Part shown: positions 30,482 through 33,740 of the stretch, one piece after another | Layout of the letters: each line of letters begins with the position of its first letter | Position numbering within the stretch: position 1 is the stretch's first letter | DNA from: Kitasatospora sp. Root107 | GTDB lineage: Bacteria > Actinomycetota > Actinomycetes > Streptomycetales > Streptomycetaceae | Direction: 5' to 3' | Assembly (NCBI RefSeq): GCF_001424875.1 | Contig: NZ_LMCT01000011.1 | Span: 78,713 to 142,712 of the forward strand | DNA: 64,000 nt | Translations under genes and position numbers: made by a program | Notes under the pieces: generated by a model | Databases searched by the model: none | Seen by the model: only the letters and a program-made list of their open reading frames with translations | What the model was told of the DNA's origin: nothing

Positions 30482-31075
30482 ATGCTGAGGATCGGACTGA
30501 CGGGCGGGATCGGCGCGGGCAAGAGCGAGGTCTCCAGGCAACTGGCCGCGCTGGGCGCGCTGATCGTGGACTCCGACCTGATCGCCCGTGAGGTGGTCGC
30601 ACCGGGGACGGACGGACTGCGCGCCGTGGTGGCCGAGTTCGGCCCCTCGGTGCTGCGGGCCGACGGTTCGCTGGACCGGCCCGCGCTGGGCGCGCTGGTC
30701 TTCGCCGACCCGGAGCGCCTGGCGGCGCTGAACGCGATCGTGCACCCGCTGGTCCGCGCCCGGTCCGCCGAGCTGGAGGCCGCGGCGGGGGAGCGGGACG
30801 TGGTGGTGCACGACGTCCCGCTGCTCGCGGAGAACGGGCTCGCGCCGCTCTACGACCAGGTGGTCGTGGTGGACGCGAGCGACGAGGCCAGGATCGACCG
30901 GCTGGTCCGCCTGCGCGGGATGACCGAGGCCGAGGCCCGGGCTCGGATGGCCGCCCAGGCCGACCGGGAGACCCGGCTGGCGATCGCCGACCTGGTGATC
31001 GACAACAGTGGCACGCTGGCCGAACTGGCACCCCGGGTCCAGGAGTTGTGGGAGACCCTGCAGAAGCGGGCTTAG
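30482..31075 (+). CDS. coaE: Dephospho-CoA kinase
   Basis: A 197-residue P-loop kinase that performs the last step of coenzyme A synthesis, phosphorylating the ribose 3'-OH of dephospho-CoA. Walker A is GGIGAGKS at residues 8-15, followed by the conserved [11 protein letters not shown], then [20 protein letters not shown] and the lid region [16 protein letters not shown]. Length matches the single-domain form. It begins 4 bp after the hydrolase stop, so the two may be co-transcribed, although coaE is also conserved near rpsA without that gene. Confidence 0.95.
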
Positions 31076-31458
31076 CCTCCCAGGATGCCCTGGACGGCGC
31101 CGGTCAGTTCGGCGACCGCGACGGCCAGCGGGGCGACCGGGGCGGCGATCGCGGTCAGCCGGTCCAGGGCGCGGCGGAGCACGCCGGGCTCGGGGCTCTG
31201 CTCGGCCAACTCCTCGCGCAGGCGGCGTACTTCGACCTGCGGGGTGTCGCCGTCGGGGAGCTCGGCCCGGTGCTCGGCGAGCAACCGCTCGACGGTGGCC
31301 AGTAGTTCGACGGCCAGCGCCCGGTGGTCGACGGCCAGGTTCTGGAAGCCGACCGGGCCGCTGACCGCGCGGGCGTGCTGCCCGATCGCCTGGTTGCCGA
31401 CCTGGCTCTGGCCGCCGAACTGCTGCACGCCGTGGTTGGTCACCGGTTCGTTCGCCAT
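31072..31458 (-). CDS. Small protein with GNQAIGQ motif and DUF5955-like helical domain
   Basis: A 128-residue protein. Residues 6-30 carry a Gly/Gln-rich tag ([20 protein letters not shown]), followed by a helical region with [20 protein letters not shown] and [19 protein letters not shown] that resembles DUF5955 from memory. No catalytic motif is seen. GGAGGAG precedes the ATG. The last 4 bp overlap the convergent coaE stop. The upstream gene (31473-33740) ends in nearly the same tag, so the two products probably share a binding partner or assemble together. Confidence 0.65.
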
Positions 31459-31472
31459 CAACTGCTCCTCCG

Positions 31473-33740
31473 TCACAGGGTCTTGTCGAGATCAGGGGTC
31501 TGCTGGTTGGCAGTCGCGCCCTGGCCGATCGCCTGGTTGCCGACCACGCTGATACCGCCCTGCTGGATCACCCCGTGGTTCAGGATGGTCTGCTGCTGCT
31601 GCCGCAGGTCTCTGGTGTCCACGCCGTGCTCGTCCAGGAACTCCACGATCGCCGCGAAGGCGTGCCGGTCGAGGGTGTCGAAGGCCCGGTTGGCGTCGAT
31701 GTGCTGGAAGTAGTTCTGGTAGTGCCCGCTGTCGGCCGCCTCCCGCACGCTCGGTGCGGCTCCGTAGTCGAAGCCCGGGCTCTGTTCGATCGTCAGCAGC
31801 TCGTGCAACCTGCGCCGTTGCCGCCGTCGGCCCGCCGTCGCCTGGTGGTAGGCGGCCCGGGGTGCGCCGAACAGGGCGCGGGCGGTGCCGCCGACGCCGG
31901 CCAGCCGCAGGATGCGCAGGCGGGTCGCGGTCGCGGTGGCCGGCAGCAGGTCGATCTCGTGGTACCAGGCGTGCACCGGGGACAGGATGCGCCGTTCGGC
32001 CTGGATGTGCATGGTCCGGCCGTCGGTGGACATGTGCAGGAACAGGCTCGGCACCACGTCGCCGCCCCAGAGCGGCAGGTGCGCGGCCAGGTAGTGCCGC
32101 ACCACACCGGTGGGGTTGAGGGCGATCTCCCGGACCCGGTCCTCCGGCAGCGAGCTGGCCGGGGAGAGCTGGTCGGGCGGCAGTAGTTCGTCGTTCCCGG
32201 CCAGGGCGGCGCCGTTGGCGAAGACCCGGTCCTGGAGCTGGAGCACCGACAGGTCGGTCTCGTCCTTCCCGGGCTTGTCGGCCGCGTGCCGGGCGGAGGT
32301 CTCCTGCAACCGCCGCCGGACCGCGCTGACCAGCTGCCAGACGTCGAACTCCTGCAGACCGCGCGCCGGTTGACCCGGCCCGGCGGGAGCGGGCAGCAGG
32401 GCCACGGCGGTCGTCCAGCTGCCGCGCGTCCCGGAGTAGCCGACGAACGGGTTGTAGCCGCTGTAGATGGTGAGATTTCCGCGCTGGGCCTTGGCGATGG
32501 CGGCCAGCCGCAGTTGGGTCTCGCGGGTGCCGGACGGTGAGACCGGCAGGTCGGGGCGGAACACCTCGCGACGGAACTGGCCGCGCAACCTGGCGTCCAC
32601 GTCCAGAGTGTGACGGAGCGTCAGGAGGTAGGCGGTCAGCAGCCCGCCGGTGGTGACGACCAGGGCCGGGATGCCCAGCAGCCAGCTGCCGAGCAGCCAG
32701 CTCAGCTGCCCGTCCACGTCGATCGAGCCGAGCAGCAGCGCCAGCGCCAGCCCGGCGCCGAAGACCGGGACGGCGACCGCGACCAGCCGCAGCACCGCGT
32801 ACGGGGTGGTGAACAGGCTGCGGCCCCGGGCCGTCCAGGCCGTGCTGGTGTCGAAGGACGAGCGGCTGAGCGCCTGCAGTGCCAGCCAGGCGAACACCAG
32901 CCACAGGGGCGCGAACAGCAGGATCACCCCGAACACCACGGCGAGGGCCGAGTCCCGTCGTCGGCGCAGACCCTGGGCGGCGATGCTGTGCCGGGCCACC
33001 GGGACCAGGTCGAAGGCGGGCGAGGTTGCGACGGCGCCGAACTCGTCGTACACCAAGTGCTCGACGACCGAGTCGGCGAGCAGGTCGTGGGTGTACACGG
33101 CCGCGCTGACGTACCGGGTCACGTCGCCCGGCACGCTGCCCAGCGGGGTGGAGTTCGGTCGCTGGTACTCGGCCATGACGGTGCTCCGTTCACGCTTGCG
33201 GGTGGGCCGCCGGGTGGCCGCCGCCGAGGCGTCCTCCGGCCGGGCTGCCAGGGAGAGGAGGACGAGGGTGAGGAGCAGGCCGACGAACAGGCCGAAGGTC
33301 AGGGCGGCGGTGATCTGCTCCACGAAGGCCAGGTCGGCGCGGAGATAGCCGTGCAGCCGGTCACCCTGCCAGAGGATGACCCAGATCGGCAGCGCCGACA
33401 GCAGGCCCGCCAGCCCCCCGGCGCCCAGGCAGCCGACCAGCAGGGCGGCCCACCCCTGGCGTAGTGGCACGTACCGGGGCACCAGAAGCAGCAGCACGGC
33501 CAGGAAGACGGCGGTCCCGACCAGTTGGCTGAACGCCCAGACCAGGTCGGGATCGTCGCCGACGACCCACCAGCCGGCCGACATGAGCTGACGCCGCAGC
33601 CAGTCCAGCGTCTGGTTCTCGAGCCTGTCCTGGTCCAGTAACCACGGTTGCACCAACGGGCTGCCCAGCACGATCAGGGCCAGGCAGACCGCCAGCAGTC
33701 GGCGTCGGGCCAACTTCGTTACGGCGAACCCCAGTTCCAT
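31473..33740 (-). CDS. Polytopic membrane protein ending in GNQAIGQ motif, unknown function
   Basis: A 755-residue protein I do not recognise. An N-terminal block (about 1-170) has four hydrophobic helices, then a basic linker (RRPTRKRERSTV), a soluble stretch, another four helices (about 265-385), and a 350-residue cytoplasmic domain ending in [20 protein letters not shown]. The join at linker residue Met188 (MAEYQRPNS) has its own ribosome site (GGAGCACC), so the second part could also be made alone or this may be a fusion of two genes. It lies 14 bp upstream of the small GNQAIGQ protein, forming a two-gene operon. Confidence 0.7.
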   Translation of the reverse strand: MELGFAVTKLARRRLLAVCLALIVLGSPLVQPWLLDQDRLENQTLDWLRRQLMSAGWWVVGDDPDLVWAFSQLVGTAVFLAVLLLLVPRYVPLRQGWAALLVGCLGAGGLAGLLSALPIWVILWQGDRLHGYLRADLAFVEQITAALTFGLFVGLLLTLVLLSLAARPEDASAAATRRPTRKRERSTVMAEYQRPNSTPLGSVPGDVTRYVSAAVYTHDLLADSVVEHLVYDEFGAVATSPAFDLVPVARHSIAAQGLRRRRDSALAVVFGVILLFAPLWLVFAWLALQALSRSSFDTSTAWTARGRSLFTTPYAVLRLVAVAVPVFGAGLALALLLGSIDVDGQLSWLLGSWLLGIPALVVTTGGLLTAYLLTLRHTLDVDARLRGQFRREVFRPDLPVSPSGTRETQLRLAAIAKAQRGNLTIYSGYNPFVGYSGTRGSWTTAVALLPAPAGPGQPARGLQEFDVWQLVSAVRRRLQETSARHAADKPGKDETDLSVLQLQDRVFANGAALAGNDELLPPDQLSPASSLPEDRVREIALNPTGVVRHYLAAHLPLWGGDVVPSLFLHMSTDGRTMHIQAERRILSPVHAWYHEIDLLPATATATRLRILRLAGVGGTARALFGAPRAAYHQATAGRRRQRRRLHELLTIEQSPGFDYGAAPSVREAADSGHYQNYFQHIDANRAFDTLDRHAFAAIVEFLDEHGVDTRDLRQQQQTILNHGVIQQGGISVVGNQAIGQGATANQQTPDLDKTL

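Follow-up and report, generated by a model that had tools for sequence, protein, structure and literature searches.

Two adjacent minus-strand genes in a 64,000-nucleotide stretch of the Kitasatospora sp. Root107 genome (contig NZ_LMCT01000011.1, positions 78,713 to 142,712; hereafter the window, in whose own numbering all coordinates are given) encode a large membrane protein and a small helical protein that share a GNQAIGQ-containing tag of 20 residues. We found that such pairs recur in a large family in which the tags are locus-specific and lie at fixed ends of the two proteins, with a constant membrane partner, exchangeable soluble domains and close gene order. Judging from the sequences, we put at about 0.6 the probability that this pair specifies a receptor together with its effector (or an effector-adaptor), wired to each other by a private homotypic tag.

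The large gene (31473..33740, minus strand), an open reading frame (ORF) of 755 amino acids (aa), encodes the proposed receptor, and the small partner gene (31072..31458, minus strand, stop codon included) encodes a DUF5955 protein of 128 aa when read from its ATG. The first-pass annotation, made from the letters alone, had reported that the neighbouring proteins share a GNQAIGQ tag, and this was borne out: both are open minus-strand frames, and 16 of 20 residues are identical between aa 721-740 of the large protein (31521..31580, minus strand) and aa 8-27 of the small protein (31378..31437, minus strand), far above chance. The tag had been correctly placed near the small protein's N-terminus, but the large protein does not end in it, as had been claimed, and continues for another 15 residues. 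The tail of the large protein aligned to the small protein with a score of 82, while the best of 20,000 shuffled tails scored 56 and 11,557 other combinations of a tail with an N-terminus reached no more than 74 (109 window ORFs of at least 100 aa, both strands, spurious frames included). A chance likeness between Gly/Asn-rich linkers was ruled out by these shuffles together with the scores of non-cognate partners described below. Exact matches to the degenerate pattern GNQA[I/V/M]G were confined to these two genes in the 8.17-Mb genome, as were those to the stricter GNQAIGQ, and the single match to the DUF5955 model in that genome was the small gene of the window.

We then asked how widely the membrane protein is distributed. 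A protein search detected relatives in 22 of 61 genomes, its own included. With a profile built from 12 members (A1), matches were obtained for the genus in 45 of 70 genomes at E 1e-10, for the order in 158 of 245 at E 1e-25, and in 10 of 246 genomes drawn from the phylum at E 1e-15, again with its own included; these genome counts take in some relatives that have no tag, such as L045 and L193. In place of a tag, L045 and L193 have a PFKADAYDA or PFKADVYDA tail, and they provide a natural tagless comparison. We fetched 118 loci from the order, chosen as the best-scoring matches and not by random draw, and kept the 113 with a full-length member. The other five (L045-L049) were dropped before counting on account of a low model score; by eye, L046 had a paired tag and L045 and L047-L049 did not. 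A first reading of the downstream frames covered 15 of 18 loci, and a second one covered part of the loci.

The C-terminal tags of the membrane proteins differ among relatives, and the gene that follows tends to begin with a tag that matches. In L041 the large-protein tag FNGNISQSVIGGANNVQNNQG is paired with FNGNVSQSVIGGHHNVQNNHG, in L042 HHGSGHISSRNSGTQTQGDQSPVNA is paired with HHGTGNISVGNSGTLSQGDHSPVNA, and in L037 VTGNVQSGSHARADY is paired with VTGVVQSGSHARADY. So that no gene was picked beforehand, each C-terminal tail was scored against three-frame translations, both of the DNA that surrounds and follows its own stop codon and of the corresponding DNA of every other locus. Over the 113 loci the median score was 73 for cognate and 35 for non-cognate comparisons, and when the competitors were partners from loci whose tails are unlike, the cognate partner ranked first in 92 of 113 and within the top 5% in 107 of 113. 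The result did not depend on counting similar loci repeatedly: with one representative per tail cluster (18 clusters) the cognate mean was 75.2 versus 36.8, with one representative per protein-body cluster (10 clusters) it was 77.3 versus 37.8, and in both cases none of 20,000 permutations gave a value as high. An ortholog comparison (24 of 25) was partly circular in that its representatives had been picked by tail dissimilarity, which the clustering by protein body avoids. As the clustering threshold rose from 40 to 60%, the cognate score was the row maximum in 9/10, 16/22 and 24/43 body clusters. Conversely, the clusters in which the cognate tag outscored every other large-protein tail numbered 7 of 10 at 40% identity, but only 8/22 at 50% identity and 9/43 at 60% identity, because near relatives have tags in common. 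For the same reason we would expect cross-talk within subfamilies and none between them.

When whole large proteins were aligned with whole partners, the best alignment fell in the C-terminal tail in 112 of 113 loci, and in 110 of 113 it also lay within the 90 N-terminal residues of the partner. Partner frames had been chosen by their match to the tail, so these counts show where the match lies and not that it exists. The tested loci carry a short motif at opposite termini of adjacent gene products. In the tags, G, A, S, N, V, Q and T abound and K, W and C are almost absent; a second copy scoring at least 50 was present in 16 of 113 partners, a count made with no control. The proposal that a membrane protein and a small helical partner are linked by a tag was supported, and the pairing recurs throughout a large family.

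A closer subfamily was collected by scanning one genome per species with a second alignment (A2), which returned 38 loci in Streptomyces, Actinomadura, Micromonospora, Pseudonocardiaceae and Motilibacter and in a Solirubrobacterales assembly. All 38 had a matching tag downstream, with a lowest score of 56; in L228 and L229 the text of the tag is unlike that of the window and matches within the locus, and the small proteins are only weakly similar to that of the window. With start codons chosen heuristically, the small gene began between -4 and 46 bases past the stop of the large gene in 34 of 38. We aligned 33 of 39 small proteins (six look-alikes were excluded by eye) and found seven invariant columns, six of which lie in the tag (N8, G10, G15, N22, A24 and G26). 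In the tag of the large protein, N721, G723, G728, N735 and G739 were invariant over 39 rows. A scan of the phylum gave nine new loci, of which seven were read by eye; four of these have pairs, two belonging to other families (L185 and L189) and two to the same family (L191 and L192).

While the membrane protein is constant, the domain attached to the partner's tag is not. At E 0.001, Pfam assigned DUF5955, the window's kind, to 28 of 113 partners and a CAP12/Pycsar TIR domain (PF10137) to 21, and every partner with any match had one of these two; 64 of 113 remain, provided that no protein matches both. All three TIR partners scanned matched PADLOC PDC-S35 models. The motif N-[VI]-L-[IVL]-E-L-G, whose Glu we take to be the catalytic residue, was present in 21 of 22 TIR partners defined by regular expression, the remaining row having a masked stretch. 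The small protein of the window matches DUF5955 (PF19380) with 33.9 bits against a gathering cut-off of 27.1, over aa 59-129 of a 134-aa reading. DUF5955 itself is widespread in the order, with matches in 163 of 197 genomes. Among its 30 best-scoring loci there, 29 were readable, and by eye none of these had a tag ahead of the domain; the tagged DUF5955 protein of the window differs from them in this. Neither window protein matched NCBIfam at E 0.01, and PADLOC PDC-M14B gave the small protein only weak rows (E 0.0065 and 0.011), which we did not use. Further genes accompany some pairs. A vWA-type YVLADES motif was found downstream of the tagged pair in 5 of 113 loci (L033, L034, L035 and L089 among them), hinting at a third component. 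A protein that begins with a YWxxxxQRW-like motif followed the pair in 10 of 113 by regular expression (L169, L172, L173 and L177 among them). Variants occur in L043 and L165, and L190 has one directly after the tag, with no small partner seen.

Structure prediction of the pair had been suggested as a check; AlphaFold2 models of the single proteins gave a confident bundle for the small protein but low confidence for both tags. Helices were predicted at residues 38-62, 72-85, 91-105 and 109-127, with predicted local distance difference test (pLDDT) values per block of 86-97 from residue 41, and this four-helix bundle is the DUF5955 domain (aa 38-127; 31078..31347, minus strand). The small-protein tag was modelled as a short, weak beta hairpin at pLDDT below 50 (blocks at 41-43). 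Foldseek returned no match to the small-protein fold under E 0.001, and the VIA-align rows, which reached Z 11.4, were a mix of unrelated four-helix bundles and were set aside. The large protein was predicted with a mean pLDDT of 81.5 as long membrane helices, an alpha/beta domain and a tail below 50 from residue 725, its tag blocks being at 50 and 41. It matched no Pfam family under E 0.1, and its fold had no Foldseek match under E 0.001. In VIA-align searches with the alpha/beta domain (approximately aa 436-708; 31617..32435, minus strand), StARkin, PR-10 and PRELI-type chains recurred at Z of 6.4 or less, which is under the level of a reliable match, with 113-139 residues aligned at a root-mean-square deviation of 3.5-4.8, and SAD-kinase fragments (Z 6.6-6.9) and de novo proteins appeared beside them. 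Because the StARkin-type rows score no higher than this, ligand binding by a START-like helix-grip domain is only a lead.

Hydropathy analysis identified seven hydrophobic segments in the window's large protein (aa 15-33, 69-87, 99-117, 146-164, 265-283, 319-337 and 354-372), whereas 118 members of the family had one to four in the region comparable to it. An in-frame ATG with GGAG upstream lies at 33174-33176 (aa 189); a Met near this position is also found in some relatives, and the open frame of others (L222) begins thereabouts. Because of this ATG and the similar Met residues and starts in relatives, a shorter product that would not include the first four hydrophobic segments is possible.

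Amyloid signalling in fungi and bacteria is marked by a short motif common to adjacent receptor and effector genes. Bacterial TIR proteins work in phage defence through loss of NAD or through its products. We compared the family with systems of this kind. Sharing of an amyloid signalling motif between adjacent receptor and effector genes is documented (PMC7889193, PMC8086366, PMC12261475), and BASS (bacterial amyloid signalling sequence) motifs are placed C-terminally in one product and N-terminally in its neighbour (PMC7889193). They fall into many motif families, mainly in filamentous actinobacteria and cyanobacteria, occur with TIR or CHAT domains as well (PMC7889193, PMC8086366), and, for BASS4, occur comparatively often as repeats on the Bell side. 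The window family resembles these pairs of an NLR and a Bell effector in its adjacent genes, its short motif on opposite ends, the variety of its motifs and its occasional partner-side repeats. It differs in having a membrane protein in place of the NLR and, if the membrane protein is the receptor, in a swapped polarity, with the receptor tag at the C-terminus and the effector tag at the N-terminus. With RHIM and fungal PP motifs the tags have in common a length of about 20 residues and a place in both receptor and effector, here the proposed ones; those motifs assemble like with like. The effector-associated domains (EADs) of NTP-dependent conflict systems are small and mostly helical; copies encoded by neighbouring genes resemble one another most, and diverse effectors are recruited (PMC7159879). 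Both of these features have their counterpart here, but the tags are only about 20-30 residues long and are either poorly predicted or weakly beta, with pLDDT values (about 50 or less) at which the models speak neither for nor against a small folded domain. The nearest kind is the BASS pair. We do not call the family a BASS member because it has no NLR and the amyloid nature of the tags is a supposition; the window tags also lack the RHIM tetrad, and the one BASS3 peptide compared does not match. No description of such a pair appeared in the literature searched, which did not take in the original BASS paper (Dyrka 2020), and the term 'DUF5955' turned up nowhere in that literature.

If the genes do encode a receptor and an effector, the membrane protein would sense a signal, perhaps a hydrophobic ligand bound by its alpha/beta domain. 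Clustering or a conformational change might then bare several disordered C-terminal tags, which would turn to a beta form and, as the paired-tag pattern suggests, template the matching tag at the N-terminus of the small protein in the manner of NLR-HET-s or BASS. The domain attached to that tag would become concentrated and activated. At the window locus the DUF5955 four-helix bundle may act on the membrane or serve as an adaptor, while in related loci the CAP12-type TIR partner is probably an NAD-consuming death effector. Contact between the proteins, fibrils and a defence function are conjectural. In its broadest form, the proposal is that of a widespread NLR-independent amyloid signalling system of actinobacteria, in which the hypervariable prion-like C-terminal tags of membrane receptors would each seed only the N-terminal tag that matches, on a TIR or helical death effector encoded alongside, in at least about ten mutually blind channels within one family. 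We advance this tentatively, at somewhat less than even odds.

A number of observations weigh against a receptor and effector joined in this way. Three of the seven further loci read by eye had no pair: L186 and L190 have tag-like tails with no neighbouring tagged partner visible, and in L193 the tag is absent, so that these loci count against a strict pairing rule. When tails were compared with all other loci, near relatives included, the cognate partner came first in no more than 31 of 113. The score of L095 against its own downstream DNA is just 33, and L095, L159 and L165 depart from the C-tail-to-N-terminus position. With a cytosolic N-terminus, the odd number of hydrophobic segments would put the window's tag outside the cell. 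We know of no activity for the tag-bearing DUF5955 protein, and a small excess in codon agreement, given below, leaves gene conversion possible. NLR features were not found in the window protein, which has no Pfam NTPase and no Walker A motif, and no NLR partner was found by that motif search or by Pfam, which was also run on 12 members of the membrane-protein family and found only DUF6594 and DUF6232, in one member each. Comparison of 226 tags with a single BASS3 peptide gave 17 at p≤0.05, where about 11 were expected, and 2 at p≤0.01; the window tags, at 0.19 and 0.30, did not match this peptide. Finally, the RHIM core tetrad, given as (V/I)-Q-(V/I/L/C)-G in PMC9444067, is absent from the window tags, which read S-V-V-G and S-Q-V-G. 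The tetrad occurs once among the 113 large and once among the 113 small tags, at different loci, and by sequence the tags were not recognisable as RHIMs.

The main rival is stoichiometric docking without amyloid, in which the tails would pair as beta strands or as a small beta-solenoid and recruit the soluble partner to the membrane. Docking would explain the cognate matching, the conserved Gly and Asn residues and the swapping of domains equally well, and the short hairpin that AlphaFold2 draws in the small tag agrees with it, but the residues of that hairpin are at pLDDT below 50. Moreover, the tags are alike and not complementary, which, together with the partner-side repeats, is a better fit to self-templating. 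We consider docking unlikely on balance; the present data do not separate it from templating.

The roles might also be reversed, with the membrane protein acting as the effector, for example as a pore, and the small protein as its activator or an antitoxin-like restraint. This would suit a membrane protein that is the unchanging element and contains many hydrophobic segments, and a window partner that has no enzymatic Pfam domain. However, the partner carries a TIR domain in 21 of 113 loci and is therefore the natural effector in those, and we regard reversal as improbable.

The likeness of the tags could, lastly, have arisen incidentally when one of the adjacent genes was duplicated or converted by the other, and have no role in signalling. 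Codons at identical residues agreed in 66% of cases against 61% expected from codon usage, with shuffles reaching at most 63%, and identical codons numbered 17 of 18 in L090 and 13 of 19 in the window. Codon usage nevertheless accounts for most of this agreement, L042 has 19 identical residues yet only 7 identical codons, and six of the seven invariant columns of the small protein lie in the tag while the tags of both genes vary jointly between diverged loci, all of which makes a mere by-product very improbable. A recent copy confined to one lineage, the outcome that the first-pass annotation had set against its own proposal, was not what we found: the spread over other Actinomycetota genera, the locus-specific tags and, for the most part, the codons rule out a recent duplication, with the small excess still standing. 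The likeness thus appears to be matched mostly at the protein level, with room for some gene conversion.

At the boundaries of the window pair, a GTG at 31476, which gives the 134-aa reading, overlaps the stop of the large gene, and an ATG at 31458 with GGAGG just upstream gives the 128-aa protein; from the sequence, the ATG is the likelier start. The stop codon of the small gene (31072-31074, minus strand) lies within a 4-base overlap (31072-31075) with a convergent plus-strand gene at 30482-31075, which extends across both stop codons. We take this neighbour to be coaE-like from the start of its protein. Because the coaE motif was found in none of the fetched flanks of 38 related loci, the neighbour is not conserved.

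A 2021 review poses as an open question whether signalling amyloids act in NLR-independent pathways (PMC7889193). The family described here is a concrete and common candidate for such a pathway, and it occurs in laboratory-tractable Streptomyces. Its numerous cognate and non-cognate tag pairs, together with at least two types of partner, provide built-in controls. Should the tags template one another, prion-like signalling would extend to bacterial membrane receptors; if they merely dock, the family would all the same provide a natural set of specific short pairing tags.

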